Positions 22,837 through 42,129 of a stretch of 43,262 bases of DNA are shown in pieces; position 1 is the stretch's first letter; the number at the start of each line of letters is the position of its first letter. The position numbers and the translations under genes were made by a program. The notes under the pieces are model-generated. The model searched no databases. It was not told where the DNA came from and worked only from the letters and a program-made list of their open reading frames with translations. Origin of the DNA: a virus; IMG/VR virus record IMGVR_UViG_3300034198_013414, positions 1-43,262 of that record; one strand, written 5' to 3'.

Positions 22837-24159
22837 CTAATCATCTTCGTAATCAAAAGGATCACTATCTTTATTATCTCTTATTAAACTATTAATCTTA
22901 CTTAATGCAGCAGACATTTTTGTCATTGTTGAACTAACACTCTCAACCTTAGTAGACTCCATCTTAGCCCTCGCATTTAACTTAGCTTCTGGAGTACTTA
23001 AAAGTTCCTTCATCAATTGACTACGCATCTTCTGAAAGCGTTCCTTCAACGCAAAAGCAGGATGTTCTTTCATCGCAGTCTTAACAGGATTACCATGTAA
23101 GTCGCTACTTAGCACGGCCTCCTGCATTAAGTCTCTACCCTCGCCAAGGCTGTCACCTTGAGATAACAGCATATTAACCCGGATCTCATAGATATCTAGT
23201 TCAGCAAGCTTGGTAGCCAAGCTAATAACACTAGGGGTAATGTTATTCATATCTCTAAAGTTCTCACTGCAGTATTGCTTAACCTTAACCTGAAGAATAC
23301 TAGCTTCTACCGGGCAAGGTTGCAGTACTGGGAATTTACTAGAGGCAAGATCAATACTTCCATTGTCCTTCTTAACAGCAAACCAACATGAGCTGCGAAT
23401 GGGGCAACTCTCATATCCTTTACAGATAAGAGGCACACTAGCATAAGTACCATGTTTAACGGCGGCAAGATGCGACCTCATTCTAGCGGCACTCTGAGGT
23501 GTTATATGCAAGTCCTTATATAGATCAGGATCACTACCAAGAAAAGTCCCAAGACTACTGCTAGAGAAGAAAGCATTAACATCTATAGTATTAGGATCAC
23601 TGGCGTCTAAAGCACTTTGAAAAGCATCTTTAAGAGAGATAGAAGTAGAAGAAGTATGATCAAGGGGCTCAGCTCTTTCCAGTAATGTTTCATCGTTATC
23701 TAAAAGCTCCCCAACTCTATCAAGTAGTATTTGTGTACTGGCCTCCACGCCGCCAAGACCATTAGTATTATGATTGCCAGAGACGAGACTAGAGTCCTTT
23801 AAGAGACTAGCAGTCTTAGTAAAGGACTTATCCTCACTGATAGCAAGACCCCTAGTAGGAAGGCCCTTTGCGCTCTCTATAACATTAACATTTTCTTCTT
23901 CAGAAAGAGCTTGCAAGTCAAAAGGCATCTCCTCTTCCCTACTTGAAAACTCTAAGCTATTCTTAAGAGTATAAGGATCTATAACTTGTCCAGAGATAGT
24001 TCCAGTATAAGTAGGTTGAGCTAGTCTCTCTGCATTCTTATATGGGTTATCAACTCCCCGCCCAGCACTATTATCGTGTGAAGACCTAGGCTTCTTATTA
24101 TTAGCCTTATTAATGTCGTTATAGTGTGCCAAAACAGAGTACTTCTTACTAGTAATCAA
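22837..24159 (-). CDS. Unknown 440-aa protein with cysteine motif, first gene of the leftward operon
   Basis: The longest frame begins at TTG 24159 without a clear ribosome site, so the true start is uncertain; the next in-frame ATG is about 77 codons later. The first 200 residues are polar and probably disordered. Around 245-285 lies CKGYESCPIRSSCWF followed by LQPCPVEASIL, four cysteines in a C-x5-C-x5-C...C pattern that suggests a metal or Fe-S site. The remainder is helical with a charged C-terminus ending DPFDYEDD. Small terminase subunits of some phages carry comparable cysteine patterns, and the gene opens the packaging and head operon, but I cannot assign it. Confidence 0.5.
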   Translation of the reverse strand: MITSKKYSVLAHYNDINKANNKKPRSSHDNSAGRGVDNPYKNAERLAQPTYTGTISGQVIDPYTLKNSLEFSSREEEMPFDLQALSEEENVNVIESAKGLPTRGLAISEDKSFTKTASLLKDSSLVSGNHNTNGLGGVEASTQILLDRVGELLDNDETLLERAEPLDHTSSTSISLKDAFQSALDASDPNTIDVNAFFSSSSLGTFLGSDPDLYKDLHITPQSAARMRSHLAAVKHGTYASVPLICKGYESCPIRSSCWFAVKKDNGSIDLASSKFPVLQPCPVEASILQVKVKQYCSENFRDMNNITPSVISLATKLAELDIYEIRVNMLLSQGDSLGEGRDLMQEAVLSSDLHGNPVKTAMKEHPAFALKERFQKMRSQLMKELLSTPEAKLNARAKMESTKVESVSSTMTKMSAALSKINSLIRDNKDSDPFDYEDD

Positions 24160-24624: not shown

Positions 24625-25113
24625 ATGTCGAACAACGTTATCGTGTCCGCTCTCCTCGTCAACGCTTCATCGGTTGAGGGTATTTATACCTATTCAACCA
24701 ATGAGGCACCCACCGCCGGGATGATCTCTCGGTACTTCCACGAGCAGGTCGCTGCAGTGGAGCGTGATGTTCTTGAGATCCAGGCGGTGGGCCTCAAGAC
24801 TTGCGTCTGGAGGACTGGCATCAACGCCTGTGCTCAGAACATCACGACGGATCAAGCAATGGAACGCTTGGTCCGGGCTCAACAGGCTCACGCATCTTTC
24901 ACTCTCTGGCTTAACAACCAGTGGGATGTCTTTGCTAAGTTTGTTGAGTCGGACCTTACCCCGCCTATGTCGCAGGGTGAGATTCAGTTCCTCAGCGGGC
25001 CGCTTAATCGGCTCGAACGCTCCATTGAGGCGACCTTTGAGTGGGTTGCCAAAACGGAGTATCAACACCAGGCTATGCGCAGCCTGATGTCAATCAATAC
25101 CTACATCAAGTAG
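24625..25113 (+). CDS. Unknown protein, 162 aa
   Basis: First gene of the rightward arm. I choose ATG 24625 because CTTGGAGTC lies 8 bases upstream and the conserved leader ends there; the longer frame back to 24556 would begin upstream of the promoter motif. The product is helical and soluble, with evenly spread Trp and Gln and two Cys, without signal or membrane segment. No known motif. It has its own promoter-like box and its own terminator, like the genes that follow. Early host-takeover function is a guess from the cassette context. Confidence 0.75.
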   Translation: MSNNVIVSALLVNASSVEGIYTYSTNEAPTAGMISRYFHEQVAAVERDVLEIQAVGLKTCVWRTGINACAQNITTDQAMERLVRAQQAHASFTLWLNNQWDVFAKFVESDLTPPMSQGEIQFLSGPLNRLERSIEATFEWVAKTEYQHQAMRSLMSINTYIK

Positions 25114-25126
25114 GTACTAGGATCAA

Positions 25127-25156
25127 TGACCTATCGAGAGATGGGTCATTTTTTCT
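25127..25156 (+). terminator. Rho-independent terminator, GAGA loop
   Basis: Nine-pair stem TGACCTATC / GATGGGTCA with a GAGA tetraloop, then TTTTTTCT. Confidence 0.88.
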
Positions 25157-25159
25157 CCT

Positions 25160-25216
25160 ATACTTAAATAGTATGGGATAGTATGTGGGTAATTTCACCC
25201 TTCATGGAGATAGACA
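25160..25216 (+). promoter_or_regulatory. Box A/box B promoter unit and leader, gap -1
   Basis: ATACTTAAATAGT (25160-25172) runs straight into TATGGGATAGTATGTGG (25172-25188), sharing one T. The leader has GGGT-AATTT-CACCC, the compensated version of the hairpin before 24625, then ATGGAG before the start. Confidence 0.7.
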
Positions 25217-25408
25217 ATGAGAATCAATGTCGCGTCTAATGAGTACCTGGCAAAGAAGTTCCTTCAAGAGATTGCTTCGGCAGTCTCCCGCAAGGAGCTT
25301 GATGTCATCGACCGCAGCATGGACAAGCACACCCGCCATAGCACCCTGACCTGGGGTACGTGGAACAGCCTGTCCGTCGTGTGGTCACAGAGATACTTCT
25401 CTCTGTAG
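25217..25408 (+). CDS. Unknown small protein, 63 aa
   Basis: Starts at ATG 25217 after CATGGAGATAGAC. Product is basic, helical at first, then rich in Trp, Ser and Thr. No signal or membrane segment and no known motif. Sole gene of its cassette, bounded by a promoter-like unit and a terminator. Confidence 0.7.
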   Translation: MRINVASNEYLAKKFLQEIASAVSRKELDVIDRSMDKHTRHSTLTWGTWNSLSVVWSQRYFSL

Positions 25409-25418
25409 CCTGATTGAG

Positions 25419-25449
25419 TGACCCATCGCAAGGTGGGTCATTCTTTCTT
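25419..25449 (+). terminator. Rho-independent terminator, GCAA loop
   Basis: TGACCCATC / GGTGGGTCA with GCAA loop, then TTCTTTCTT. Almost the same hairpin recurs at 29779. Confidence 0.88.
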
Positions 25450-25451
25450 AC

Positions 25452-25527
25452 ATACACAAATAGTATGACTTAACTTGTGGCACGTTACCTATAATTCATA
25501 GGAACGATTTCAACCAGGAGGTTTGCC
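25452..25527 (+). promoter_or_regulatory. Box A/box B unit and leader type 1, gap -1
   Basis: ATACACAAATAGT (25452-25464), box B TATGACTTAACTTGTGG (25464-25480), then a leader with CCTAT-AATTC-ATAGG and AGGAGGTTTGCC. This leader is nearly the same as that of the gene at 26446 although the two proteins are unrelated. Confidence 0.7.
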
Positions 25528-25884
25528 ATGTTGAACGTTATTCTTGTCGCTTTGATGGCTCTTTGCTTCGTCGTCGGCCTTGTTACTCTTTTCTTCCCCT
25601 TCGGGAAGGAGAGCGTCAAGACTGTCAACGTTGCTCCTGCCGTCAAGTCTGCTGCCCAGGTCTCCCTTGAGGAGATTAGGGATCAGGCTCGCAAGGCTAC
25701 TGCAGAGGATATCCAGGTGTTCGTCGCTTGGTTTGAGGGGTTCCACGGCTACAACCGTGAGATCCCGTCCTCTATCCGCTACCAGCACATGCTGGAGTGG
25801 AGGGAAATCACGGATAAGCTCCACAAGGAGCTTCCGGCTGACCTGGTTCAACCCTGGTTCAGCATTGTTCACAACTGGCGTTAG
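25528..25884 (+). CDS. Membrane-anchored small protein, 118 aa
   Basis: Start ATG 25528 with AGGAGG seven bases upstream. Residues 3-25 form one membrane helix (VILVALMALCFVVGLVTLFF), then a basic turn and a soluble helical domain of about 85 residues with several Trp. The likely topology is a short outside N-terminus and a cytoplasmic domain. No family recognised. Single-gene cassette. Membrane-located host modulation is possible. Confidence 0.75.
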   Translation: MLNVILVALMALCFVVGLVTLFFPFGKESVKTVNVAPAVKSAAQVSLEEIRDQARKATAEDIQVFVAWFEGFHGYNREIPSSIRYQHMLEWREITDKLHKELPADLVQPWFSIVHNWR

Positions 25885-25896
25885 AGATTAGCTCTG

Positions 25897-25925
25897 GCTC
25901 GCTGTAATGGCGAGCTATCTTTTCT
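25897..25925 (+). terminator. Rho-independent terminator
   Basis: GCTCGC / GCGAGC stem with a 7-nt loop, followed by TATCTTTTCT. Confidence 0.82.
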
Positions 25926-25928
25926 AAG

Positions 25929-26041
25929 ATACTCAAATAGTATTATGGGTTAACATGTGGGAGTTGGTAATCTTACTAGCTTCAAGTCCTGGGAATTGTC
26001 TCGGGCAGGGTGAAATTCCCTTCCAACCAACGGAGGATAAG
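25929..26041 (+). promoter_or_regulatory. Box A/box B unit and leader type 2, gap 2
   Basis: ATACTCAAATAGT (25929-25941), box B TATGGGTTAACATGTGG (25944-25960), then an 80-nt leader containing TCGGGCAGGGTGAAATTCCC and GGAGGATAAG. The same leader type precedes the gene at 26847. Confidence 0.7.
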
Positions 26042-26305
26042 ATGAACAAGAGCATGATCCAGATGAGCGAGATTGCGGAGACCTGCTGGGCAACCTTCAA
26101 TGATTCTGTTGACAACAACGGTATCAAAGAGGGTTCCCATGAGGAGCTTCGGAACACGCTTAGCACGATCAAGGTCGAGATCTCCCGCCTCAAGGACATC
26201 GAGGCCAAGGACGGTTCCTCCTGGGACCTGGACAAGGAGATGAACGCGAGCTGGCAGCTGGTTCGCGCCATCGAGAACGCCTTCATTAAGGCGATGTACA
26301 AGTAG
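26042..26305 (+). CDS. Unknown small protein, 87 aa
   Basis: ATG 26042 follows GGAGGATAAG directly; the frame extends upstream into the leader but the conserved leader and ribosome site fix this start. The protein is acidic, helical, with heptad-like Leu/Ile/Val spacing in the middle (ELRNTLSTIKVEISRLKDIE), so a dimeric coiled coil is likely. No membrane segment. Family unknown. Confidence 0.72.
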   Translation: MNKSMIQMSEIAETCWATFNDSVDNNGIKEGSHEELRNTLSTIKVEISRLKDIEAKDGSSWDLDKEMNASWQLVRAIENAFIKAMYK

Positions 26306-26336
26306 TAACTAGAGCTCACGCTCTGGTCAAGCTCTG

Positions 26337-26360
26337 GCCCCTTCGGGGGCTATCTTTTCT
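26337..26360 (+). terminator. Rho-independent terminator, TTCG loop
   Basis: GCCCC / GGGGC with a TTCG tetraloop, then TATCTTTTCT. Confidence 0.85.
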
Positions 26361-26363
26361 AAC

Positions 26364-26445
26364 ATACTAACAGAGTACTACTATGAGTTAACATTTGGCA
26401 CACTACCTATATTTCATAGGAGTGATTTCAACCTGGAGGTTTGCC
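26364..26445 (+). promoter_or_regulatory. Box A/box B unit and leader type 1, gap 5
   Basis: Divergent box A ATACTAACAGAGT (26364-26376), box B TATGAGTTAACATTTGG (26382-26398), leader with CCTAT-ATTTC-ATAGG and GGAGGTTTGCC, the near twin of the leader at 25481-25527. Confidence 0.68.
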
Positions 26446-26646
26446 ATGGATAAGTTGAAGATTGAGATTCGGAACTGCAATTCCCTCATTTCCGTCAACC
26501 TTCTCGCGGATGATGTCCGTTTCCACAGCCAGTACGGCTGGGGCAACAGCTACTGCCGGGATATGGAAGAGAGGCGCGAGGAGATCAAGCGTGAGTGCGC
26601 CCGTCGCGGCTTCTTCAATCCTGCTGGGCGTAATCCCTGGCATTGA
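26446..26646 (+). CDS. Unknown small protein, 66 aa
   Basis: ATG 26446 after GGAGGTTTGCC. Starts MDKLKIEIRN; its first 17 coding bases are the same as those of the lipoprotein gene at 28388. The rest is charged, with two cysteines and a basic end (NPAGRNPWH). Soluble. Family unknown. Single-gene cassette. Confidence 0.7.
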   Translation: MDKLKIEIRNCNSLISVNLLADDVRFHSQYGWGNSYCRDMEERREEIKRECARRGFFNPAGRNPWH

Positions 26647-26699
26647 TTGATTGAGAGCTTGATCCTTTGAGCCCTTGAGTCAGCTTGTATTAGCTTAGG

Positions 26700-26733
26700 T
26701 GGCCTGTCCGAGAGGATGGGCCATCTTTTCTTA
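26700..26733 (+). terminator. Rho-independent terminator, GAGA loop
   Basis: TGGCC / GGCCA and inner TCC / GGA stems around GAGA, then TCTTTTCTT. Confidence 0.8.
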
Positions 26734-26734
26734 T

Positions 26735-26846
26735 ATACTTAAATAGTATGAGCTAAAGTGTGGAGGTTCAAATTTTCTATGAACTTCAAATCCTGAGAGT
26801 GTTCTCGGGTGGGGTGAAATTCCCTTCCTTTTCAATGGAGGATAAG
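26735..26846 (+). promoter_or_regulatory. Box A/box B unit and leader type 2, gap -1
   Basis: ATACTTAAATAGT (26735-26747) overlapping box B TATGAGCTAAAGTGTGG (26747-26763); leader with TCGGGTGGGGTGAAATTCCC and GGAGGATAAG as before the gene at 26042. Confidence 0.7.
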
Positions 26847-27074
26847 ATGATGATCACGACCGAGATGCAGTTGCTTGAGGTTGAGACCATGGTGAACGGT
26901 GTTGTCATTGACACCACTCCCCACCCCGGCCGTGGGTGGAAGAATCTTGTGGCCTTTGGGCTGCAGCACCACGGCATCGAGGGTGGCACCCCTGTGCGCC
27001 TTCGACTGTTGATTCGGTTCAGCGTGTTTGGCACTGAGGTGCTCCATCATGTTGAGCAGGATTTCAACTGGTAA
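26847..27074 (+). CDS. Unknown small protein, 75 aa
   Basis: ATG 26847 follows GGAGGATAAG; a second ATG comes directly after it, so either may be used. The product alternates beta strands with a Pro/Gly/His/Trp loop (TTPHPGRGWKNLVAFGLQHH) and ends HVEQDFNW. Small beta-rich fold, soluble. Family not recognised. Confidence 0.7.
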   Translation: MMITTEMQLLEVETMVNGVVIDTTPHPGRGWKNLVAFGLQHHGIEGGTPVRLRLLIRFSVFGTEVLHHVEQDFNW

Positions 27075-27098
27075 TAACTGGTTGATGGACTAGAGGAT

Positions 27099-27140
27099 TG
27101 CCCCACTTTGGCTTATGCTAGGGTGGGGTATTTCTTCTCT
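27099..27140 (+). terminator. Rho-independent terminator, long loop
   Basis: CCCCAC / GTGGGG stem with a 17-nt loop, then TATTTCTTCT. Confidence 0.75.
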
Positions 27141-27142
27141 AA

Positions 27143-27229
27143 TACTTACAGAGTTCTGCTATGAGTTAATATATGGCAGATTCTACCCCCTGCCCAGTGC
27201 GCCACACTGCAACCTTCAAGGAGGATAAA
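27143..27229 (+). promoter_or_regulatory. Box A/box B unit and leader type 3, gap 5
   Basis: ATACTTACAGAGT (27143-27155), box B TATGAGTTAATATATGG (27161-27177), leader with GGCAG / CTGCC and CAGTG-CGCCA-CACTG hairpins, then GGAGGATAAA. The gene at 29390 has the same leader with a compensatory base-pair change. Confidence 0.72.
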
Positions 27230-27472
27230 ATGAGCAACAACACCAACGAGACGACCCCCAAGACAGAGGAGGATCGTCTTCTCGACTGGCTGTCTCAGGC
27301 TGCGGCCTGGACTGCCTTCGAGAACCGCGGGAGCAGATGCGGCTACCAGGTCGCACGTGGCGTTTACAGCGCCATGACCAGCTCGCCCCCGGAATACCGG
27401 CTCTTCGCGAGCATCCACAAGGCGACTGGGTTCAATCGTCGCGCTCTCTACCTGTACGTTCCGTTCAGGTAA
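27230..27472 (+). CDS. Unknown small protein, 80 aa
   Basis: ATG 27230 after AAGGAGGATAAA. The first 15 residues are polar (Asn/Thr/Glu), then an amphipathic helix (DRLLDWLSQAAAWTAFE), then a basic, aromatic C-terminal half. Soluble. Family not recognised. One-gene cassette. Confidence 0.7.
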   Translation: MSNNTNETTPKTEEDRLLDWLSQAAAWTAFENRGSRCGYQVARGVYSAMTSSPPEYRLFASIHKATGFNRRALYLYVPFR

Positions 27473-27509
27473 AGAGCAACGGCTCACCTTAGGGTGGGCA
27501 AGGGAACAT

Positions 27510-27539
27510 GGCCCGTCTTTGGACGGGTCATTTTTTCTA
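27510..27539 (+). terminator. Rho-independent terminator
   Basis: GGCCCGTC / GACGGGTC with TTTG loop, then ATTTTTTCT. A second hairpin GCTCACC / GTGGGC lies just upstream (27482-27499). Confidence 0.88.
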
Positions 27540-27541
27540 AG

Positions 27542-27630
27542 ATACTTAAATAGTATGACTTAGAAGGTGACATGACATGGCGTAAACTGCAGATTCGCAG
27601 AGCGCTAACCTAACGTAAAGGAGGTTTGTT
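27542..27630 (+). promoter_or_regulatory. Box A/box B unit and leader, gap -1
   Basis: ATACTTAAATAGT (27542-27554) overlapping a divergent box B TATGACTTAGAAGGTGA (27554-27570); the leader ends AAAGGAGGTTTGTT before the start. Confidence 0.65.
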
Positions 27631-27921
27631 ATGGACTCGATGATGTGGTTGCGATTGATTTTCGCCGTCATTCTTCTCGGGGGTGCAGGAACGGGTTTCA
27701 TGATCCTGTTCTGCGGGCTTGTTGACGAGGAAACTCGTCAGCAGGCTCGCAAGATTCGCGCCTCTGTCCGTGCTGCCCGTAAAAAGGCAAGCGAGGCTCG
27801 GAAGAAGGCCGCCAAGAAGAAGTGGCATAACAAGCGGGACTACTGGTTCCGCGAGTTTGGGTGCTGCCCTTCGCAGGGCAACAGCAAGGCCATCACGGAC
27901 CACTTGGCTAACAAGCCTTAG
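27631..27921 (+). CDS. Membrane protein with basic coiled tail, 96 aa
   Basis: Start ATG 27631 with AAAGGAGG upstream. Residues 6-30 are a membrane helix (LRLIFAVILLGGAGTGFMIL and after). Residues 35-70 are an Arg/Lys/Ala-rich helix with repeated RKKA units, likely to bind nucleic acid or the negatively charged membrane face. The end holds GCC and aromatic residues. Positive-inside topology puts the basic tail in the cytoplasm. Family unknown. Confidence 0.72.
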   Translation: MDSMMWLRLIFAVILLGGAGTGFMILFCGLVDEETRQQARKIRASVRAARKKASEARKKAAKKKWHNKRDYWFREFGCCPSQGNSKAITDHLANKP

Positions 27922-27942
27922 GTCCACAATCAGGGAAGCTCT

Positions 27943-27971
27943 GGCTCACCGCAAGGTGGGCTATCTTTTCT
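27943..27971 (+). terminator. Rho-independent terminator, GCAA loop
   Basis: GCTCACC / GGTGGGC with GCAA loop, then TATCTTTTCT. Confidence 0.88.
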
Positions 27972-27974
27972 ACT

Positions 27975-28062
27975 GTACTTAAATAGTTCAAGTAGTGTGG
28001 GTTAAAGTGTGGTGATATAGCCCCGCATTTCGTTGGGGAATATTACTAGAAAGGAGTCTGTC
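27975..28062 (+). promoter_or_regulatory. Box A/box B unit and leader, gap 8
   Basis: GTACTTAAATAGT (27975-27987), box B TGTGGGTTAAAGTGTGG (27996-28012); leader hairpin CCCC / GGGG, then AAAGGAGTCTGTC. Confidence 0.68.
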
Positions 28063-28263
28063 ATGGTTAAGGTTCTCTGGAACATTGTCCGCGTCTTCGT
28101 TCACCTCTTGAATATGTTCTTCGCTGGTTGCCTCATGGACAACTGGCTTCGGGTCGCCGGCCCCGAGAACCTGTTCAACGCTCTCGGCACGTTCGCAACG
28201 ATCGTGCTGATCGGCATGGCCATCGTGTCCTCGCTGTTTTGGCAGTATGGATTCGATGACTAG
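28063..28263 (+). CDS. Two-helix membrane protein, 66 aa
   Basis: ATG 28063 after AAGGAGTCTGTC. Two hydrophobic helices, about residues 4-24 (VLWNIVRVFVHLLNMFFAGC) and 40-60 (ALGTFATIVLIGMAIVSSLF), joined by a polar loop; ends in acidic residues. Small integral membrane protein of unknown role. Membrane proteins of this size in early phage regions often alter membrane function or exclude other phages, but nothing specific points there. Confidence 0.72.
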   Translation: MVKVLWNIVRVFVHLLNMFFAGCLMDNWLRVAGPENLFNALGTFATIVLIGMAIVSSLFWQYGFDD

Positions 28264-28290
28264 AGGATGAGGTAGACTGCATCATCGAGT

Positions 28291-28315
28291 GGCTCGCTTA
28301 GGCGGGCTATTCTTT
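28291..28315 (+). terminator. Rho-independent terminator, TTAG loop
   Basis: GCTCGC / GCGGGC with TTAG loop, then TATTCTTTG. Confidence 0.82.
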
Positions 28316-28320
28316 GAACA

Positions 28321-28387
28321 ATACTTAAACAGTCCTATGGGCTAAACGGTGAGATGGGTAATGTCACCCAAACCGAAAGGAGATCTC
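28321..28387 (+). promoter_or_regulatory. Box A/box B unit and leader, gap 2
   Basis: ATACTTAAACAGT (28321-28333), box B TATGGGCTAAACGGTGA (28336-28352), leader hairpin GGGT-AATGT-CACCC, then AAAGGAGATCTC. Confidence 0.68.
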
Positions 28388-28648
28388 ATGGATAAGTTGA
28401 AGATCGCGTTGCTTGCCTCGCTCCTCACCGCTTGCTCCAGCAACAACACGCTCCCCGTGCCGACCACCGGTACGATCGAGCCGAAGGTTGCTGGGTACTG
28501 CGTTGAGGACGAGCTTGTTGAGATCGACTGCAGCCTTAGCGGGGAAACCCGTTGGCGGTGGTGGATTGTAGACTTCTCTGCGACTCACCCACACCCGATG
28601 AGTGACGTGCCTAACGGCACGCCACTCCCGGTATGCGGCGACAAGTAG
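28388..28648 (+). CDS. Small lipoprotein, 86 aa
   Basis: ATG 28388 after AAAGGAGATCTC. The N-terminus is a lipoprotein signal: MDKLK, a short hydrophobic core ALLASLL, then the lipobox LTAC at residues 13-16 and SSNN after it. The mature part has three Cys (YCVEDELVEIDC and VCGDK) and a Trp-rich stretch RWRWW. It would be lipid-anchored on the cell surface side of the membrane. Phage-encoded lipoproteins are known to block receptors and exclude superinfecting phages (T5 Llp, for example); that role is inferred. Confidence 0.75.
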   Translation: MDKLKIALLASLLTACSSNNTLPVPTTGTIEPKVAGYCVEDELVEIDCSLSGETRWRWWIVDFSATHPHPMSDVPNGTPLPVCGDK

Positions 28649-28663
28649 AGAGCAACCCGACGA

Positions 28664-28690
28664 AAGCCCCGTAAGGGGTAAGTAATCGAC
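28664..28690 (+). terminator. Hairpin with TAAGTAATC tail instead of a T run
   Basis: GCCCC / GGGGT with GTAA loop at the place where other cassettes have terminators, but the tail is TAAGTAATC. The same odd tail follows the hairpin at 29268. Confidence 0.55.
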
Positions 28691-28691
28691 A

Positions 28692-28773
28692 ATACATAAA
28701 TAGTTGTACTGCTATGAGTTAATCTTTGGCCAGCTTTGGGATAATGTCGTCCCCACTCGTAAAGGAGTTAGCC
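28692..28773 (+). promoter_or_regulatory. Box A/box B unit and leader, gap 8
   Basis: ATACATAAATAGT (28692-28704), box B TATGAGTTAATCTTTGG (28713-28729), leader ending AAAGGAGTTAGCC. Confidence 0.66.
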
Positions 28774-28953
28774 ATGGACAAGATTCTTGTCAAGATCCTC
28801 GCCCTGTTTCAGATCGAGCTCATCGTCCTCCTCACGGAGGAAGAGGAGTTTGCCTGGGAAAGCGACATCGCCGACGCCCTTTGGGGCTGTGACTGCCTCG
28901 CGTGCCGCCAGTCGGTGCGTCGTGGTGGTTGGCTTGCTGACCGCAGCGAGTAA
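28774..28953 (+). CDS. Unknown small protein with CxxC, 59 aa
   Basis: ATG 28774 after AAAGGAGTTAGCC. Residues 4-20 are hydrophobic (ILVKILALFQIELIVLL), then an acidic stretch EEEEF, then GCDCLACRQSV with a C-x-C-x2-C arrangement that could bind metal, and a basic end. The N-terminus might be a membrane or amphipathic helix. Family unknown. Confidence 0.7.
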   Translation: MDKILVKILALFQIELIVLLTEEEEFAWESDIADALWGCDCLACRQSVRRGGWLADRSE

Positions 28954-28979
28954 CTAGAGCGATTGAGGATAGATAGGAT

Positions 28980-29011
28980 GGCTCACCCTGAGGAGGTGGG
29001 CTATCTTTTCT
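28980..29011 (+). terminator. Rho-independent terminator
   Basis: GCTCACC / GGTGGGC with a 7-nt loop, then TATCTTTTCT. Confidence 0.82.
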
Positions 29012-29014
29012 AGG

Positions 29015-29097
29015 ATACACAAATAGTAGTATGGGCTAGGCTGTGGGCATACATAGCTTTACACTTCGTAAAGAATGATGCCAAACTGGAGAATGTC
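29015..29097 (+). promoter_or_regulatory. Box A/box B unit and leader, gap 2
   Basis: ATACACAAATAGT (29015-29027), box B TATGGGCTAGGCTGTGG (29030-29046); leader with CTTTAC-ACTT-CGTAAAG and an outer GGCAT / ATGCC pairing, then ACTGGAGAATGTC. Confidence 0.66.
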
Positions 29098-29244
29098 ATG
29101 AAGAATGCAATCGCTACCGCCAGCTTCCTCCTCGCAACCTGCACCCTCGGCTGGAGCTTTGGCTCTGGCGTGATGGAGCCGGTCTGCGCGGGTCTTCTGA
29201 TCCTGTCCTGGATCGGCATCTCGTGGAGCTGCATGCAGGACTAA
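29098..29244 (+). CDS. Small hydrophobic protein, 48 aa
   Basis: A short ORF from ATG 29098, supported by CTGGAG at correct distance and by its place in a promoter-leader-gene-terminator cassette. Sequence begins MKNAIATASFLLATCTLGW, a lipobox-like LATC included, and a second hydrophobic stretch AGLLILSWIGISW follows. Either two membrane helices or a cleaved or lipidated peptide. Function unknown. Confidence 0.65.
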   Translation: MKNAIATASFLLATCTLGWSFGSGVMEPVCAGLLILSWIGISWSCMQD

Positions 29245-29267
29245 GAGCTGAGGTTGAGGTAGATGAA

Positions 29268-29298
29268 AGCCCCACTGCAAGGTGGGGTAAGTAATCTA
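29268..29298 (+). terminator. Hairpin with TAAGTAATC tail
   Basis: CCCCAC / GTGGGG stem followed by TAAGTAATC, like 28664, in place of the usual T-rich tail. Confidence 0.55.
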
Positions 29299-29300
29299 TA

Positions 29301-29389
29301 GTACTTAAATAGTCCTACTATGAACTAGAAGATGGCAGATTCTACCCCCTGCCACGGTGCGCCACACCGCCTTTCCAATGGAGGAAACC
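29301..29389 (+). promoter_or_regulatory. Box A/box B unit and leader type 3, gap 5
   Basis: GTACTTAAATAGT (29301-29313), box B TATGAACTAGAAGATGG (29319-29335), leader hairpins GGCAG / CTGCC and CGGTG-CGCCA-CACCG, then ATGGAGGAAACC. The G-C pair in the second hairpin replaces the A-T pair of the leader at 27178-27229. Confidence 0.7.
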
Positions 29390-29752
29390 ATGTGCAAGAA
29401 GATCAATGATGTGACGGATAGCGCGCTCCTTATCTCCTTCCCCCCCACCCTTCCCGTCTCGGTCTACAAGACGGAGATCGTCGAGGCCCTCAAGGCCATC
29501 GGCTGGAACCACGTGGCGGCTTCTTTCAGCGGCGAGATCGACACCGTCAAGGTCTCGGTGCACCGCAAGACTCTGGCCAAATGCCAGTTGTCAGAGGAAG
29601 CTCGCTACTCTCTGGCCATGGCCAAGGGTCCCGACCTTCAGTCCAACGAGGACTGGCTGACCACCGCTACCCCCTGCCGCTATGCGGTGGGCAACCTCTA
29701 CTGCAACCTCAAGACTGTGGTCGAGGCTCGTACTGGGGCCTGGCGGAAGTAG
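29390..29752 (+). CDS. Unknown protein, 120 aa
   Basis: ATG 29390 after GGAGGAAACC. Mixed alpha/beta, soluble, five Cys. A segment TEIVEALKAIGWNHVAASF followed by GEIDTVKVSV looks like a small ferredoxin-like or swapped beta-alpha unit, but I recognise no family. Single-gene cassette with its own signals. Confidence 0.7.
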   Translation: MCKKINDVTDSALLISFPPTLPVSVYKTEIVEALKAIGWNHVAASFSGEIDTVKVSVHRKTLAKCQLSEEARYSLAMAKGPDLQSNEDWLTTATPCRYAVGNLYCNLKTVVEARTGAWRK

Positions 29753-29778
29753 AGAAAGGGAAGAGAGACATCACTGAG

Positions 29779-29811
29779 TGACCCATCGCAAGATGGGTCA
29801 TTCTTTGAAAC
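29779..29811 (+). terminator. Rho-independent terminator, GCAA loop
   Basis: TGACCCATC / GATGGGTCA with GCAA loop, then TTCTTTG. Near copy of the terminator at 25419, one stem base pair changed from G-T type to A-T type. Confidence 0.85.
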
Positions 29812-29910
29812 ATACTTAAATAGTACACTAGTCTGGGCTAAACAGTGAAGTAAAGATCCTTTTACTCACAGCGCTGTACTGCATACAGCATTACCACAAG
29901 GAGTCTACAG
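29812..29910 (+). promoter_or_regulatory. Box A/box B unit and leader, gap 7 (exception)
   Basis: ATACTTAAATAGT (29812-29824), box B TCTGGGCTAAACAGTGA (29832-29848) with ATG replaced by CTG and a gap of 7, outside the three-step series. Leader has GTAAA / TTTAC and CTGTAC-TGCATACAG elements, then AAGGAGTCTACAG. Confidence 0.62.
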
Positions 29911-30198
29911 ATGCATTTCTGTAAATGTCTTGAGGTGCTTCCCATCCGGGTTGCTATCGTCCATATTGCCGAAGAGGCAGTAGAGCTTTTCGAGGTTAAA
30001 AACCTTGAAGAACTCAAGGACGAGGCTTCCGACGTGATGTGGGGAATTGGCCGGCTTCTCGGAGCTTTGGCTAATAAACCCTACATCTCGGTTTGGGGTG
30101 ACACTCTTCACCTTCGCAAGGTGGAGGCTCGCATGGCCGAATACGGCTGTGTGCGCAGCAAGCGTCACCTCAAAGATGGGGAGTGCCCGTCTCCCTGA
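29911..30198 (+). CDS. MazG-like nucleotide pyrophosphohydrolase, 95 aa
   Basis: ATG 29911 after AAGGAGTCTACAG. The pattern AEEAVELFEVKNLEELKDEA followed by SDVMWGIGRLLG matches the MazG-type all-alpha NTP pyrophosphatase fold: an E-E-x2-E helix and a downstream D-E-x2-D helix provide the magnesium-binding acidic residues. Such enzymes hydrolyse NTPs or dNTPs to monophosphates; phage versions are proposed to lower alarmone or clean nucleotide pools. The C-terminus is short and basic, ending near GECPSP. Only one domain is present, as in phage forms. Confidence 0.7.
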   Translation: MHFCKCLEVLPIRVAIVHIAEEAVELFEVKNLEELKDEASDVMWGIGRLLGALANKPYISVWGDTLHLRKVEARMAEYGCVRSKRHLKDGECPSP

Positions 30199-30264
30199 AA
30201 CGGGAGGTGCCTGATGGGGTGGTGCCCATCCGAGAGTTGCTTCTTGGGAACAGAAAAGCACGTC

Positions 30265-30290
30265 TAGCCCGCGTTAAGGGCTATTTTTTC
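30265..30290 (+). terminator. Rho-independent terminator
   Basis: TAGCCC / GGGCTA with a 7-nt loop, then TTTTTTCTC. Confidence 0.87.
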
Positions 30291-30294
30291 TCTA

Positions 30295-30391
30295 ATACTC
30301 AAAGAGTTGTATAGTTATGGGTTAAATTGTTTTACTTTACTCAAATAGTCCAAAAATAGTCGTCAAAAGAATACTATGGGCTAAACAGTGG
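30295..30391 (+). promoter_or_regulatory. Tandem box A/box B promoter units before the giant non-coding region
   Basis: First unit: ATACTCAAAGAGT (30295-30307) and TATGGGTTAAATTGTTT (30316-30332), gap 8. Second: TTACTCAAATAGT (30337-30349), an extra AAAAATAGTCGT, and TATGGGCTAAACAGTGG (30375-30391), gap 25. It is the only doubled promoter in the window and points into a region without genes. Confidence 0.65.
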
Positions 30392-31950
30392 AGTCTTAAA
30401 CATATGGAGTGACCATATGTGGGGATCAGCGTTGGCAAGGTTTTGCACGTAGTTAACGCCCCATAAAAAATAAGCAACGAATCTTACCGGTTCGTTGACT
30501 TGTGCAGTATCTGGCCATGCCCAAAGGTGGATGGTCGGAGAGGACACGAGGACAGTATAAGCAGCTAGGCTAACAGCCAAAACTGTGTTCCTGCATAAAT
30601 CCGGCGGAGGGAGCAATCCCTAAAAGTCGGTAGCAGAAAAACTGTCAACCTAAGATCTCGTACGGCCTGCAACACAGACTGAAACACCAAGGAGGAACAG
30701 TTCTTCCGGGGGCGAAAGCTCCTAATATGTCGGTGGTGTGGATGTCAAGTATGGCTAATAGAGATTTTAGGGGTCTGCCTGTCGGCAGTAGGGCGTCATC
30801 CCTCACCAAAGATGACTATATGGGTTTTAACTTTCCCAAGCGTTGATTACGCGCACTAAGTCTGTTGTCCTCGAAAGAGAGTACGGACTTTAAAAAAGGA
30901 GGCAAAAGGGGAACCTCAACAAAAACACCCCGCAAAACCGACACAAGCAGATCTCGTGATAGGCAAACTCCCGCCCTTAAGCAAGGCGGCAAGTGCTGAA
31001 CCCTTTCCCTGTTTTTACAGAGTAAATGCTGCATAATTCCCCAACTGTCGTGAGACAGAGTAGGCGCACTCTAGCAGGTGTGGCCGGTGGACCAAGTTAT
31101 CCAGGAGGATTTCTACTTTAAGCGGTAGCCCTTCTGCAGAGATAACGAGGAATCAACGAGGACAGATCAGATAACCGCTATACAGTTGATTACTGTGTAG
31201 ACAGGACCTGGTCTGTGAGATGGTGAGATTCGTTGCTTTAGCTTCGTAACAGAAGTATGACACAAAGCGTCCCAAGAAGGATGCTGTGTCTTTGACTCCC
31301 ACACTTGACACTTGTAGAAGGCTGTGATTCGGTTGAAATACCGAGGAGCCGTTTGCATTTGGATTGGGTTATAAACACCCTATATACTGGTTTTAGCGAG
31401 TAGCGCCGCTCTTACTGGTAAGAAGAACCCAAATCACTATGCAAGCAAAAGATCAGCCCCCAATTAGTATGTGATGACTGCCAGGCATGCACGTATAAGA
31501 GGGGATAGGCGCTTGTACGCCTAAACTAACAAGAAACCGCTGCCAGAGGTTCAGTTCTTGTTAGGATCTGTTTGCCCATAGATAACTACACATAGGTCAG
31601 GTAATTACTAGATGCTCTTGCTCTCAAAAGGAGTAGGATGGTTATATCTTCTCGCGCAATTCGGCGGCAAGATCCCTAGCATAGAGGCCCATTGAACCTC
31701 TAGTCTAGTAATGTAGTGGGAGAAGAAGACTGCAGCGCAAGAATCCTTTAAGGGATAAAACGCTTTATGTCATGCTAATGTGCGAAGCTAATCCCAGGAC
31801 GGAGGCAAGGCTCCTGGCGTCCCTGGATGGGTTCACGGCGTATAGATCGCTGGTCTGTTAACAAGTATCAGACTAGTAATTTATGCGTTGAGCAAACTGC
31901 ACACTGGGTGTGTAAGTGTTTTAATGAACTTCCCAGGAAGGGTATTTTTT
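30392..31950 (+). ncRNA. Candidate giant structured non-coding RNA (about 1.56 kb)
   Basis: No plus-strand ORF with a ribosome site exists across about 1,500 bases, yet promoter and terminator motifs bound it. Many stems close perfectly: CATATGG/CCATATG (30401-30419), CAACGAA/TTCGTTG (30475-30497), GGGGC-GAAA-GCTCC (30709-30722), CCGCC/GGCGG (30971-30989), CTGTC-GTGA-GACAG (31045-31058), GACAC plus AGCGTCC with GGATGCT plus GTGTC (31259-31290), TAGGCG/CGCCTA (31506-31523), CTAACAAGAA/TTCTTGTTAG (31526-31564), TAGAGG/CCTCTA (31682-31702), and a nested stem 31794-31826. GNRA tetraloops recur. Phages are known to carry ornate large RNAs such as GOLLD and ROOL; I cannot match this to either by eye, and it is longer. 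It could also be several RNAs end to end. Confidence 0.65.
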
Positions 31951-31951
31951 G
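31927..31951 (+). terminator. Terminator-like end of the giant non-coding region
   Basis: Short stem CTTC-CCAG-GAAG, then GGTATTTTTTG. The stem is weak, but the T run and its position just before the next promoter unit support it. Confidence 0.6.
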
Positions 31952-31955
31952 TACG

Positions 31956-32230
31956 ATACTTAAATAGTTGCACTACTATGGGCTAAAATGTGGACCAGCT
32001 CTCTGCTAAGGGGTGGTCGCAATGGGCCGGATAGTTCGAATGGCACCCCAGTATCTTCCAAGAAGGTAGTATGGGTCAATGCCGGAGCGAACAGAAAGCC
32101 AGGGTTTTAAACAGGGTCCTTCCCATAAAGGACCAGAAATCTTCCAGTGTGTTACAAGACACTGGTATGTCGGTCATAGGGAATGCTTCCCTATAGATCG
32201 CGCTGGACCCCGTTGACTAGGAGGTAACTC
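31956..32230 (+). promoter_or_regulatory. Box A/box B unit (gap 8) and long structured leader of the giant gene
   Basis: ATACTTAAATAGT (31956-31968), box B TATGGGCTAAAATGTGG (31977-31993), then a 237-base untranslated leader with perfect stems GGTCCTT/AAGGACC (32115-32134), CCAGTGT/ACACTGG (32144-32165) and TAGGGAA/TTCCCTA (32177-32193), then CTAGGAGGTAACTC before the start. Other leaders here are 30-95 bases, so this one may be a cis-acting control RNA. Confidence 0.62.
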
Positions 32231-35200
32231 ATGTCTCGGATCCAACTCGCCATCACCGCCATCGTGGCTGTGGTGTTCGCCGTTTTCGCAACGGCGCTGA
32301 CCGTGGAGGCCCAGCTGGCCCCCACCCTTTCGCAGCAGGCCGCTGCCCTAGTCAGCTTCTTCGTCACCAGCTTCGTGCTGGTCACGGAGGCTGCAACCCG
32401 CATCGCTCCCCGCATCCCCGCTTCCCTCGTGGTCCGCTTTGCCAATTCGGTGAAGCCGACCACCCCAATCCTCCTCGCGGAGGGTAAGGACCATCCCATG
32501 GTCCGTGTCATCTTGGCCTTCGTGGCCCGTTTTCTGGCGAACGTATACGCCATCGTCCTTCCGCTTCGGCGGACTGTTGCTGCCCAGTCGGCGGCGTCGC
32601 TCAGGCTGCAGGCGCTTACCCGCCATGCAGCCCGTTTGGCCCGGCGTAACTGCTGGACCACTATCCGCCTTGACCGCTGGCTGCGGTCGAAGGGGGTCCA
32701 TATCCCCAAGGCTGTCGCCAAGCCCGCTCCGAAGGCAATTGCCAAGCCTGTCGCTAAGGCTCCTGTGAAGCCTGCCCCTGCCCCTGCCATCGAGGTTGCT
32801 GCTGTCACGGAAGTGGCAGTGGAAGCCGTCGCTGAGCCCGCTGTAAAGCCTGCTCCCAAGGCTGCCTCCAAGCCCGTTGCGAAGCCCGTCGCTAAGGCTG
32901 CTGCGAAGCCCGTCGCGAAATTCCCCCGCGTCACGAAGGCCATGACCTTCTCGGCGCACATCGCGGCGGCAAAGGCCAAGCAGGTTACTCCTGTGAAGCC
33001 CGTAGCTATCGGCGCTAAGATTGTGGTCATCAAGACCACCCTTGCCAAGCGCATCGAAGCCGCTGTCTGTGGTAACACGGGCAAGTCCGCACAGGATACC
33101 GCAAGCGTCTTCTTCGCCATGACGGCGACTGAGGATGCCCAGAAGCGCACCAGAAAGCGGGAACTGAGCCGCCAACGCCGCAATGCGGTGAAGGCCAGCT
33201 CCCCGCTTATCGCCGTACTCGCCGCTGCAGCACCCACGTTCAGCCAGGCGGTCGAAGCCGCTTGGGCTAAGAGCCCGGCCGAGTTCCTTGCAGGACCCGG
33301 CTTTCTGTTTGTCGTCGGCATCGTCGGTATCCTGTTCGTTGTAGTGGGCAATGCCCTTGCGACGAAGCTCGAGGCCATGGTTAAGGCTAAGCCCAGCGAA
33401 GCCGACTGCGGGCCCGAGACCTGCGTCGGTTGCGGTGTTGCAGGATTTGGCTCAAAGGGCCAATTCTGCAATGTCTGCCAGGCGGACGGTACCGAGTTGA
33501 CCATGAGAGGTGGCTATGACCGCCTCTATGCCGGCATCCCCAGCGACGCCATCTCAGCCATCGCAGCTCGTCTTATGGCGGCTTGCGAGGATATCTTTGC
33601 CGAGGTCAACAATGACCTAAACGGTGAAGCCACCAGCACCAACAACGACACCAAAGCTTCCGTTAAGCCGGGAATCATCCTGGCCTCGACGAAGCACACC
33701 GGGGCACCCACCCCTAAGGAGAACAAGATGGGTAACAAGAAAGTCCGGGTATGCACTCCCGGCACGTTCGCAGCCTTCCTTGAGGAGGCGTGTGCTACTA
33801 GTCCTGCGGCTGACGATAGCCCTGGACTCCTCGAAGGTCTCGTTGTCGCTGACGACGATACCGATGCCGTGGCCAACGCTAAGAAGCTTGGCCTTGTCAC
33901 CATTCGGGTTCTGCAGAAGGGTATGACCCTCTACTGCACGCCCGAAGCCAAGAAGGTCAGCATGGCGGCTCTGCGGTTCAAGGGTAAGACCCTGGGCCGC
34001 ATTGCTAAGTATGCTGACTCGTACTGGATCTCGCGGGTTACTGCCCGCGTTGTCCTGCCGGGTAAGGTCCTGGACCTGGGCAAGATTGCCGCTGCACTGG
34101 TCAAGTTCTTCGACGGCCTTGTGCTTGTCCGTGCCGACGTGGCGAAGGCCATGGGTCTGACCGCTCCGATGGTGGCTCGTATCTTGACCAGCGAAGGTCT
34201 GATCAAGGGTATGTGCATCCCGCTTCCGGCTCGGTACTTCCCTGAAGGCGTCTGCATCATTGCCAGTGAGGTGAAGACCGAGTGGTCCGCTACCCAGAAC
34301 GACTATGCCCTTTGCTGGATCCCCGGCACTGCGGCGCTCACGAAGGAGAAGGCGGTTATGTCGCTTCAGTCGATCCTTATGCTTCTCGGAGCTGAGGTCA
34401 ACTCGAAGGAGTTCTACCAGCTCATTGCTGGCTACATCGCCTACGCCAAGAAGCGTCTCCCCGACTTCCTGAAGGGTCTGGACGAGGATGCTGACGACTT
34501 CGTTGCTGGCGACGAAGAGGCCAAGGTCGAGGACAACCGCAACAGCGTTCTTGCGAAGCTCCTCGGCGCGATGCGAATCCCTGTTCTCCCCTTCCGCATG
34601 CTGGCACAGCAGCTGGTTGGCACCTTGAGCAAGAACATTGAGCCTGGCTCGATGAAGATCGCTCCTGTTACCGAGGAGGGAAGCGACTTGTGGGCAACCT
34701 ACCCCATCCCGGTCCTCTGGCCGATGCTGCATGCGGCTTGGATTGCTGAAGGGCAGCACTCTGAGGAGGTTGCTACGAAGGCGAAGCAGACCATGGAGCT
34801 GGAGACGAAGACGGCTGATGGTCGTCTTATTGTCTACTGCACCAACTTTGCTCGCTGGGCGAAGAACAACTGCGCGCCCAACCTGGCAATCTTCTTCCGT
34901 AACCCCACCGGCGAAACGTCGGGCACGGTTGCGGAGATCCGTGAGCTGCCGGAAAGCCTGAATATCTTCATCATCGGCGTAAGCGGCCGTATGGTGATCA
35001 TGTTCACCACGGCGAGCGGAGACACGGTAGTCCTCCTGCTCCAGGCAAACGAAGGCATGGACTATGATGACCGCTGCCCCACTGCGCGTGGTAAGCTTGC
35101 CATGCTCATCGTGAAGGGTCTGGCCTGGCGTACCGCTCTTGCTGATAAGGCGAAGCTCAACGCCGAGAAGCGTGCACAGAAGAACGCGCTCCGTGCTAAG

Positions 35201-38200
35201 ATGGTCGCCGGTATCCCGGAGAACAAGAGCCTGTGGACCCGCCTCAACGCGGCCACGATCCTCGGTCAGGCTTTCAAGGTGAAGACGGAGAACTTCGTCA
35301 TTACCGCCGTTACGGAGCCCGAAGCGCCGGTCGAAGCCACCACTGCTGGTATGAGCCACGAGAGCTTGTACGAGTCGGTGATGAACATGGAGGAGAACGT
35401 CTTCCAGAAGGCGATTGGTATCGTCGCTAACGCGAAGATCTACGGCATGTCCCTGGCTGTTGGCTGGGTGAAGCTGCCTACCTTCCTCGAGGAGCTTCGT
35501 GAGGAGATCTCCGAGACGCTCCTCTTCGGCGTGACGTTGTCCGACATCGTTGACGCAGCGGTCAAGATGACGGGTTACGCTGAAGCCTGGGCATCCTACC
35601 GGATGGTGCAGGTCTACCAGGTCTGGCTTGACCTTGTCACCGAAGGCAAGGGCCGTGAAGGTTGGGCATTCGTGCCTGCCGTTCTGCGGAAGCTCAGCCT
35701 TGGTGCGAAGAGCTTGTTCGTCGACCCGGCCAAGCGTGTTGCTGTCCTCGGTGAAGACATGCAGCCCCTGTTCGAGAATGGCACGAAGGTGACCGCTCCC
35801 GTCCGCAACGAAGAAGGCGAGATCGTTACCCACCTCGTCGCTGGTGAGCTTAGCTCGAAGGTCTACACCCTCTGGGCTGACTACCGCCAGTGGTGCATCG
35901 ATGAGGTCGAATCCCTCGCCAATGCTCAGTGGGAAGCTGGTCGCCAGAACGTCCTGCACCAGACGCTCACTGCTTGGCTTGGTCGCACGGAAGACGAGGC
36001 CCCTGGCGAAGAGACCGAGGCCTGGCTCTACTGGAACTGGAGCCCCGGTAGCTTCAAGAACCTCCAGGCTTGGACCAACCAGGAACTGATCCACAAGATC
36101 ATGGCTCCTGCAGGCCACGAGAGCAACCGTCGTTACAGGGTCGTCAGTGCAATGCTGGCTGGCGGCAACATCTCGCGTGCCAAGAAGGCACTCTGGCTGG
36201 CCTACTCGGCGATGCCCATCAGAGCGGCGATTGAACTCGTAGACTCCCAGATCGAGTCGTACATCCTCAAGAACTTTGAGGCTGAAGACCGCGACGCTGC
36301 TGTGAAGATGGCCTGGCTTGCCTTTGCCAATCGTTACCTGCAGCCTGCTGAGAAGGCCAAGAAGGTCGGCAAGGATGCGAAGCCACAGGCTCTTGAGATC
36401 ACCATCACCGAGGATGCCAATGGCAACCTTAAGGCGAATGGCGGTATCGCTACCACTGCGTTCTTCGTCGGCGGTCCCTGGGAATACCTCACGGACTGGA
36501 TGTCCAGCAATGGCATTGCCGCAATCAACGGCCTCGACGATAACAGCCTCGGTGAAGCCCGTCAGCTTGCTCTCTACTTGGGCAAGGGTGGTACCCCGAC
36601 GGTACGCCAGGACGCAGAAGCTCTCCTCGCCTACATCCGTGGTGAGAAGAACTGCGGTGGCTTCGGCGGTGACGGCGAGAAGCTTGGCTGGGGGATCGAT
36701 GGTCTTCTCAGCCTGCCCGGCGTGCGCATCAGCGATGGTCGAGAGGCCAATGGCTTTGAGGGTCAGCTTGCGACTGTCAGCGAAATCGGTCGTCAGATCG
36801 AGCTTCGTCGGAAGAACAAGGGTGAGGAGCTTCGTCACGCACTGGCTGACTTGAAGAAGGCCAAGAAGCCCAGCGAGACAAAGATCGCAGAAGCGCAGGC
36901 TGAGCTCGACAGCTTCAACGCTATGAGCACGCTTGAAGCTGCTGACTCATTCGGTTTCCTGCGTCGCTTGATCGAGATCTTCCCGGGTACTGCGGTGAAG
37001 GCAGAGCTTGTGGAGCGTGAGTGGGTTACCGAGTGGAACCCCGACATCAAGACCAAGGACGAGAATGGTAAAACTGTCATGGGTCGCACCGTGGCTGTTG
37101 GCACCAGGTTCGCGCCTCAGGGCTTGAACAGCTTCCTGATCCTCACCTTCCTTGGCGACGACAACGGTCCTCAGGGTGGAGGCGAAGAGGATCTCAACGA
37201 TGTCTTCTCTGGTGATGAGCCTGAAGAGGATACGTACGAGGAGGGTTACGAGGATGAGCCCTCGCACGAGTATGACATCTCGGAGGACGCTGACGAGATG
37301 CCCGAGCCGGAAGATGCAGAAGAGCCGGACTTCGGTGAAGAGAACCCGGACTTCGACCCTAGCCAGTACGGTGACGAAGAGGAAGAGTCCGAGGTCTTTG
37401 AGGAAGACGAGAAGGCCAAGAGCAGCGACCGCTTCGATTACACCGATTGCTGGGTGGACAGCGAAGACGAAGAGTCTGAAGCCACTGAGGCTAGCGCTCC
37501 GGTCGTTGCTAACGCTGCACCTGCCGTCTACAACCGGGCAGATAAGGATATTCCTTCCGGTGCGGTATACGTTGGCCGTCCCAGCAAGTGGGGTAATCCC
37601 TTCGTCCTTGGCCGCGATGGCAACCGTGAGGAAGTCATTGCCAAGTACGAGGCTTGGGTGAAGGCACAGGTTAATCTCATGGATAGCCTCGGAGAACTTA
37701 CTGGCAAGTCGTTGATTTGCCATTGTGCACCCGAAGCCTGCCACGCTGACGTCCTGCTGCGCCTTGCCAACAAGACTGAGGAAGAAGCAGAAGAGTCCAT
37801 CCCCACATCTGTGTGCGAAGTGTGCGAGGGCGCTGGCTGCCGCATTTGCACAAATGCCTGTGAGGACTGCAAAGTCGAGGGGGATTTCGTGGCCGGTCTC
37901 TGCCCGACCTGCGAAGCCAGATACGAAGACAATGGCCCCTCGATGGCCGCTGTGTGCCCTGTTGCCGAAGACGAAGAGTCCGAAGACTTCAAGTCCACAA
38001 CGCTTGGTTTGCCTAATCGCGAAGCCGACAAGCGTGAAGTCGAAGCCAAACTCGGACTCCGTGAGGATGGTCAGGGCTTTGATGGGGAAATCCAAACCCC
38101 GAATGGAAGCATTATTGCAACCGAGTACGCACGCATTGTGTACGGGGACCATGGCCCCTACATCGAGTTTGATGCTGATAGCGTTGACCTTAGCGAGTGG

Positions 38201-39104: not shown

Positions 39105-39312
39105 CAGATACTCCGCTGGGCTGCGCCGAGTCCTCGCCTCTGATTCACTCCGCTGCGCTACGCTCATCAGAACCACAGGACACACCACTCCGCTGCGCTA
39201 CGTGGTTACCCTGCTTCGCTGCGCTCCGCAGGTAGCAACACAGCCTGCTCCGCTGCGCTACGCAGGCAACAGCAACAACGCCGCAGCACAGGCATCGCTG
39301 CGCTCGCCTTTC
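39105..39312 (+). repeat. Cluster of hairpins with a constant CGCTGCGCT loop
   Basis: Stems differ but pair: CTGAT/ATCAG (39141-39170), CCAC/GTGG (39185-39205), CCTGC/GCAGG (39210-39232), GCCTGC/GCAGGC (39243-39267), AGGC/GCCT (39290-39310), each enclosing YCGCTGCGCTMC. A diverged copy CCGCTGGGCTGCG is at 39112. No ORF here. Related copies lie at 39990-40006 and 40452-40472. Confidence 0.7.
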
Positions 39313-39927: not shown

Positions 39928-39966
39928 CCAAAAATAGTTGCATTACTAGTATGGCCAGACAGAGTC
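39928..39966 (+). promoter_or_regulatory. Diverged box A/box B unit before non-coding region B, gap 11
   Basis: CCAAAAATAGT (39928-39938) and TATGGCCAGACAGAGTC (39950-39966). The gap is 11, the next step of the 3-nt series; the TAA/TAG of box B is lost. Confidence 0.45.
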
Positions 39967-39989
39967 CAGGTAATAGGATTCTATTAGGC

Positions 39990-40006
39990 TCGCTGCGCTC
40001 GCCTCA
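39990..40006 (+). repeat. CGCTGCGCT-loop hairpin, dispersed copy
   Basis: AGGC-TCGCTGCGCTC-GCCT, the same family as the cluster at 39105-39312. Confidence 0.6.
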
Positions 40007-40397: not shown

Positions 40398-40436
40398 AAC
40401 CCCAGCACAGTAGGATGTGTTGGGGTTTTATTTTTA
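40398..40436 (+). terminator. Strong rho-independent terminator ending RNA B
   Basis: AACCCCA / TGGGGTT outer and CACA / TGTG inner stems, then TTATTTTTA. Confidence 0.92.
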
Positions 40437-40451
40437 CTCCGCTACACAGTA

Positions 40452-42100: not shown

Positions 42101-42129
42101 CTTTCCCCCTTATGTCCTTGGAGGACAAC

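Follow-up and report, generated by a model that had tools for sequence, protein, structure and literature searches.

What occupies the longest gene-free interval listed for a phage and its relatives? The stretch of viral DNA analysed here (hereafter the window) is a virus record of 43,262 bp, of which positions 22231–43262 match a segment of a 145,919-bp IMG/VR contig at 100% identity (G001, referred to below as its own contig). Between the unit of a 95-aa gene and a gene encoding 2265 aa lies a gap of 1,929 bp (30262–32190). It is the longest of 27 gaps of at least 450 bp that lack an ORF of 85 aa, in a list drawn from pieces of the own contig, the window, and pieces of seven relative records, in which some rows are duplicated.

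In the left arm of the window the genes lie on the minus strand and include matches to portal and terminase; gene orientation turns to the plus strand near 24.6 kb. The portal protein is 89–94% identical to those of large contigs of 80–176 kb (25 loci overall, the weakest at 27%).

Location and boundaries of the candidate RNA unit

The gap lies at the end of an array, spanning 25.1–32.0 kb, in which a bipartite promoter-like motif is present in 16 copies (25161–31986). Each copy consists of a TACTTAAATAGT-like box, a spacer, and the core NTG-NNN-TAR; thirteen are found ahead of short genes (48–120 aa), two ahead of the candidate RNA unit, and one ahead of the 2265-aa gene. A T-run is located just 5′ of most copies (the exceptions are 28693 and 29302), and the units of the array therefore look insulated from each other by terminator and promoter. 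Apart from one mismatched site, the motif is restricted to the array in the 131.9 kb scanned of the 145.9-kb own contig, with which a scan of the window agrees, and none was found in 12 pieces of relatives. Scanning viral_contigs with the motif yielded 11 stretches; more than one copy is present in the own contig only, and the other ten were judged to be chance matches.

In all copies but those at 29813 and 30338 (14 of 16), the number of nucleotides between box and core is divisible by 3, and the core always follows NTG-NNN-TAR, a start-codon-stop pattern; this is an uncontrolled observation, and the copies may share ancestry. A protein with a sigma-70 region 2 is encoded in four of five records, outside the window; a phage sigma factor is placed at 33379–33588 of G001. 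A T7-type polymerase that might read the promoter was found in none of the five records, but 14 control genomes were equally silent, so this result is uninformative.

Fourteen plus-strand genes are present at 24625–30198. Searches of PHROGs and/or Pfam at an E-value of 0.001 assigned no family to any of the 12 of these genes that were searched, and tblastn at an E-value of 0.01 matched none of the 14 in the relatives examined. Two proteins of this cassette were found in viral_contigs in the own contig only, and one of these, also searched in the phage collection, had no match there. Antisense control of 15 gene leaders by the unit was considered and rejected, the number of complementary 9-mers (8) being close to the shuffle mean of 8.2.

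The features of the candidate unit are listed in Table 1. The sequence-only reading had proposed that the region possesses its own doubled promoter, built from the phage's motif, and a T-run terminator. Two motif copies do lead into the region, but the motif belongs to the array rather than to the phage as a whole, and the spacer of the second copy is atypical. At the other end a T-run is present and is followed by the promoter motif of the next unit, but no hairpin was identified directly ahead of it in a terminator scan, so that a 3′ terminator at this position is not canonical. The RNA would begin directly after promoter copy 2.

Table 1. Predicted features of the candidate RNA unit and its boundaries (positions in the window).
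Feature	Position	Strand	Evidence or description
Intrinsic terminator of the upstream 95-aa gene unit	30265–30293	+	Stem 30265–30283 followed by TTTTTT; terminator scan
Promoter motif, copy 1	30296–30325	+	TACTCAAAGAGT, 9-nt spacer, ATGGGTTAA; motif table
Promoter motif, copy 2	30338–30384	+	TACTCAAATAGT, atypically long 26-nt spacer, ATGGGCTAA
Candidate 1.56-kb RNA body	30392–31950	+	Coding signal absent; well-defined predicted fold
Two 5′ hairpins	30400–30420, 30429–30459	+	MFE; pair probabilities 0.98 and 0.89
Domain I (767 nt)	30472–31238	+	Closed by AAGCAACGAATCTTACC / GGTGAGATTCGTTGCTT; mean pair probability 0.97
Possible A-rich H-type pseudoknot (GAGG..GGGG..CCTC..CCCC)	30899–30931	+	By-eye reading; MFE pairs CCCC elsewhere (p 0.68)
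Domain II (~554 nt)	31238–31791	+	Closing helices of 13 and 15 pairs
Domain III	31794–31944	+	23-bp hairpin 31836–31890 (p 0.92); outer helices uncertain (p 0.29–0.49)
T-run, putative 3′ end	31945–31950	+	Six T
Promoter motif of the next unit	31957–31986	+	Followed by a structured leader and the 2265-aa gene at 32231

These boundaries bear on the possibility that the region is a very long structured leader, in which read-through from 30296 or 30380 past a weak T-run would extend into the 2265-aa gene, and the RNA would act as a regulatory 5′ UTR. The lack of a canonical terminator at 31945–31950 fits such a leader, as does the sequence beyond it, which is non-coding up to the gene at 32231 and folds at 31980–32230 (z −2.8). 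However, the T-run is followed at once, at 31957, by a full promoter motif, which gives the 2265-aa gene a start of its own; at 1.9 kb, the leader would also be extreme in length. We regard this arrangement as unlikely.

Predicted fold

The region had been described as densely folded, and this is borne out by how well the fold is defined. The positional entropy of the unit is 0.429, compared with a mean of 1.196 and a minimum of 0.928 among 12 shuffles, and 39 equally long windows of the own contig, each taken on one randomly chosen strand, all lie higher, from 0.598 upwards. Shuffle-based positional entropy was computed for four regions, and a coding window of the cassette (0.695) also falls under its own shuffles. 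In the MFE structure, 359 of the 524 pairs have a probability greater than 0.9.

Folding energy z-scores and stem counts, in contrast, fail to discriminate the unit. Using 40 shuffles each, z is −12.0 for the plus strand and −5.2 for the minus strand of the unit, compared with −11.1 for the coding cassette window, −7.3 for the giant 2265-aa gene, −11.1 for the downstream non-coding region, and −0.35 for the gene at 463–2022; with 12 shuffles the cassette window reaches −19.7 versus −9.4 for the unit. The earlier count of at least ten perfect stems stands as a count, with 16 Watson–Crick runs of at least 8, but it is no higher than expected by chance (shuffle mean 13.6, and 17 of 60 shuffles reach 16). 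Of hairpins capped by GNRA tetraloops, the MFE fold has four, more than any of 40 shuffles (mean 0.45, maximum 3), but five are present in one coding cassette window, with 0 or 1 in six other control windows.

Both large domains are predicted to be closed by long-range helices. Domain I is bounded by a 17-nt inverted repeat (30472–30488 with 31222–31238) whose arms are 733 nt apart and differ from perfect complementarity at one position (94%); its 13-bp perfect core exceeds in length every run found in 60 shuffles. Domain II is closed by pairing of 31238–31251 with 31779–31791 (mean pair probability 0.90) and of 31254–31269 with 31761–31776 (0.98).

Distribution

A blastn search of the unit against phage and plasmid collections gave no match. 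The segment 29890–32260, compared with 25 relative records, matched the own contig and none of the other 24. A word-7 blastn against 36 pieces of relatives returned nine matches, all with an E-value of 0.92, and blastn against 1.25 Mb of non-own loci returned three, none of them significant (E-values of 0.041, 0.041 and 0.30). Two loop patterns allowing for changed stems matched only the own contig in viral_contigs; one of them, scanned against genome_contigs, gave two A-rich matches that were judged to be chance; and a model of one 131-nt subdomain, run over 44 sources (829 kb), found only itself. Without a match in any of those 24 records, or a significant one in the other loci, the candidate RNA appears lineage-specific in the data reached, and the case for it rests on a single sequence. 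In searches of open-licence PMC papers we recognised no description of the candidate RNA.

The corresponding sites, from a 440-aa gene (22837–24159) to the giant gene, hold protein genes in relatives L042, L035 and L043, and in L095 (first 2.2 kb); some of these genes contain a GDSGG motif, a sequence familiar from serine proteases. Records L039 and L041 are cut at the site, and the stretches compared between G003 and G012, and between G005 and G008, do not differ, leaving about four distinct relative sites that were seen.

Another reading is that the non-coding DNA gives rise to no RNA, being made up of genes in decay, a site of replication or packaging, or filler left after recombination. 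In its favour, the region is lineage-specific, is missing from the relative sites that were read, and has no homologue in any collection reached. Decay, however, would not yield the low positional entropy or the 17-nt closing repeat, and the region is entered by two promoter copies and folds more strongly on the plus strand (z −12.0 versus −5.2). We consider this explanation distinctly improbable.

Coding capacity and Rfam comparisons

The description of the region as gene-free is confirmed. The 3-base periodicity of 30392–31950 is 0.0002 bits, compared with 0.103 for the giant gene and 0.124 for the gene at 463–2022, and the longest stop-free plus-strand frame in the body (70 codons) is not beyond that of shuffles, 156 of 200 of which reach or exceed it. 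A run of short protein genes resembling the neighbouring units is suggested by the 13 neighbours that are genes of 48–120 aa and by minus-strand ORFs of 63–80 aa in the region itself, but with 3-base periodicity absent and no plus-strand ORF starting inside the body longer than 46 aa, we give it very little credence.

The sequence-only reading had also offered an extended relative of the ornate large RNAs, to be sought with the GOLLD, ROOL, HEARO, OLE and raiA models. No such relationship emerged. The whole window has no match to Rfam 15 at gathering thresholds, and a permissive search of 29700–32300 up to an E-value of 5 gave only TCL6_2 (E-value 0.75), under its gathering score; matches to the GOLLD and ROOL covariance models were absent from both searches. 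HEARO, raiA, introns, rRNA, tmRNA and RNase P are also represented in Rfam, and these, as well as OLE, were without a match in the same searches of the window and of 29700–32300. On other pieces of the own contig and seven pieces of relatives, Rfam identified tRNAs only. A divergent form of GOLLD, ROOL or another named large RNA would, like the unit, be phage-borne, very large and highly folded, but against this outcome of the Rfam searches it is a most improbable identity.

Neighbouring elements

The 2265-aa gene (32231–39028) encodes DUF4326 and YspA SLOG domains near the C terminus of its product, together with long Ala/Lys/Pro-rich stretches. It is preceded by a structured 250-nt leader (31980–32230; z −2.8, with 1 of 200 shuffles as good), for which blastn found no match in relatives, and is followed at 39120–39310 by repeated CTCCGCTGCGCTACG words, similar ACTCCGCT words recurring in relative L042. 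Another non-coding unit occupies 39931–40445; its start resembles a promoter, it has a terminator, and it contains a ACCAGATGAGGCCTGTCGGCTTCTGGT hairpin module that recurs. Copies are present in L042 and L045, and a pseudoknot (CCTGTC/GACAGG) was suggested by eye.

A separate structured region at ~40765–41260 is matched at ~79–87% by relatives in longer blastn pieces, and has no Rfam match at gathering thresholds. It includes a 130-nt module (40844–40974) for which six copies were aligned: 97.6% of cells are paired and 7 of 28 pairs are changed on both sides, values that none of 500 shuffles equals and of which slid controls fall far short, although the structure was drawn by hand from the same sequences, which favours it. 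Further pair types are not above shuffles (249 of 500). A model of this module (R2) finds one full-length copy each in the window, L036, L042 and L046, and two each in L037, L040 and L043; all except those of L043, L046 and one L040 copy are sequences from which the model was built. Kinship of the candidate RNA with this module was rejected, as R2 has no match in 30392–31950.

At 41184–41260 there is a tRNA-like element, folded by eye, with a T-arm-like TATGGGTTCGATTCCCATA, a 7-bp acceptor-like stem and a variable arm; it is conserved in L042, L037 and L040, and in L036 its 3′ half only was seen. A second tRNA-like element at ~42035–42103 has blastn matches in relatives. Neither is called by ARAGORN or Rfam.

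Interpretation

The region has no coding signal, occupies a slot flanked by promoters, and has a predicted fold whose definition is unusual within this genome. These observations best support the reading that it encodes an autonomous and highly structured RNA of the phage, and we assign this a probability of roughly two in three; the earlier proposal of a giant structured non-coding RNA is upheld to that extent, for one sequence and with an inferred transcript. We infer that the region is transcribed, that the RNA has the start and end given above and adopts the predicted fold, and that it works as RNA. The promoter motif of the array would direct transcription of a single RNA of ~1.56 kb, which would be released near the T-run at 31945–31950. 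The product would be the RNA itself, consisting of two large closed domains with 5′ and 3′ hairpin domains, and the form it would most plausibly take in infected cells is a stable particle, either on its own or together with protein. This particle role is drawn by analogy with other large phage RNAs, and we hold it possible, if doubtful. More tentatively still, the unit may represent an undescribed giant RNA class, ~1.56 kb long and multidomain, possibly forming a multimeric RNA-only particle, and acquired by one phage lineage together with a short-gene cassette under a private promoter.

Known large structured RNAs of phages are few and lack an assigned function, and this unit, given its length and its own promoters, would widen their size range. 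It can be cloned as one template for transcription, chemical probing and cryo-EM. A second RNA, separate and supported by covariation, is found downstream in the same phage clade, which is therefore a good place to study RNA-rich phage biology.

Relationship to known large phage RNAs

In PMC12286853, GOLLD is a very large structured RNA of phages and prophages, with many members longer than 800 nt and a function that is unknown, and ROOL is a large RNA, also from phages and prophages, for which no protein partner is known, the studied example being 659 nt. The same paper describes Rfam as including GOLLD, ROOL and OLE profiles, and reports that all three RNAs form homo-oligomers, with GOLLD and ROOL forming cages. 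As described there, GOLLD resembles the candidate unit in being phage-borne, very large and highly structured (by prediction in the case of the unit); the unit is about twice as long, is without an Rfam match and, unlike GOLLD, has no tRNA array next to it in the window, the nearest Rfam tRNAs being in L002 at 22610. ROOL and the candidate are both large phage RNAs, but the unit is longer than 659 nt and is without an Rfam match.

Two further phages offer a parallel. In PMC7567579, the most abundant transcript of ICP1 is an ncRNA of ~800 nt from a ~1-kb orf-less space, and PMC9241854 describes abundant lncRNAs in phage K; the role of these large ncRNAs is given as unknown in both. On these accounts, ICP1, phage K and the unit have in common a gene-free space in a phage, which in the lytic phages ICP1 and K yields a large ncRNA by RNA-seq, whereas for the unit the RNA is predicted from sequence. 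The unit is about twice the length of the ICP1 ncRNA and lies within a promoter–gene array; the sequence comparison with the ICP1 and phage K ncRNAs was that of the phage collection search. Two features that describe a large structured phage ncRNA are found in the unit, namely a long phage region without coding signal and a fold beyond chance, as seen in its positional entropy and closing repeat. It is plausible, by analogy, that it works like the GOLLD, ROOL, ICP1 and phage K RNAs. Large phage ncRNAs are already a known kind, of which this unit would be an orphan form about twice the size of GOLLD.
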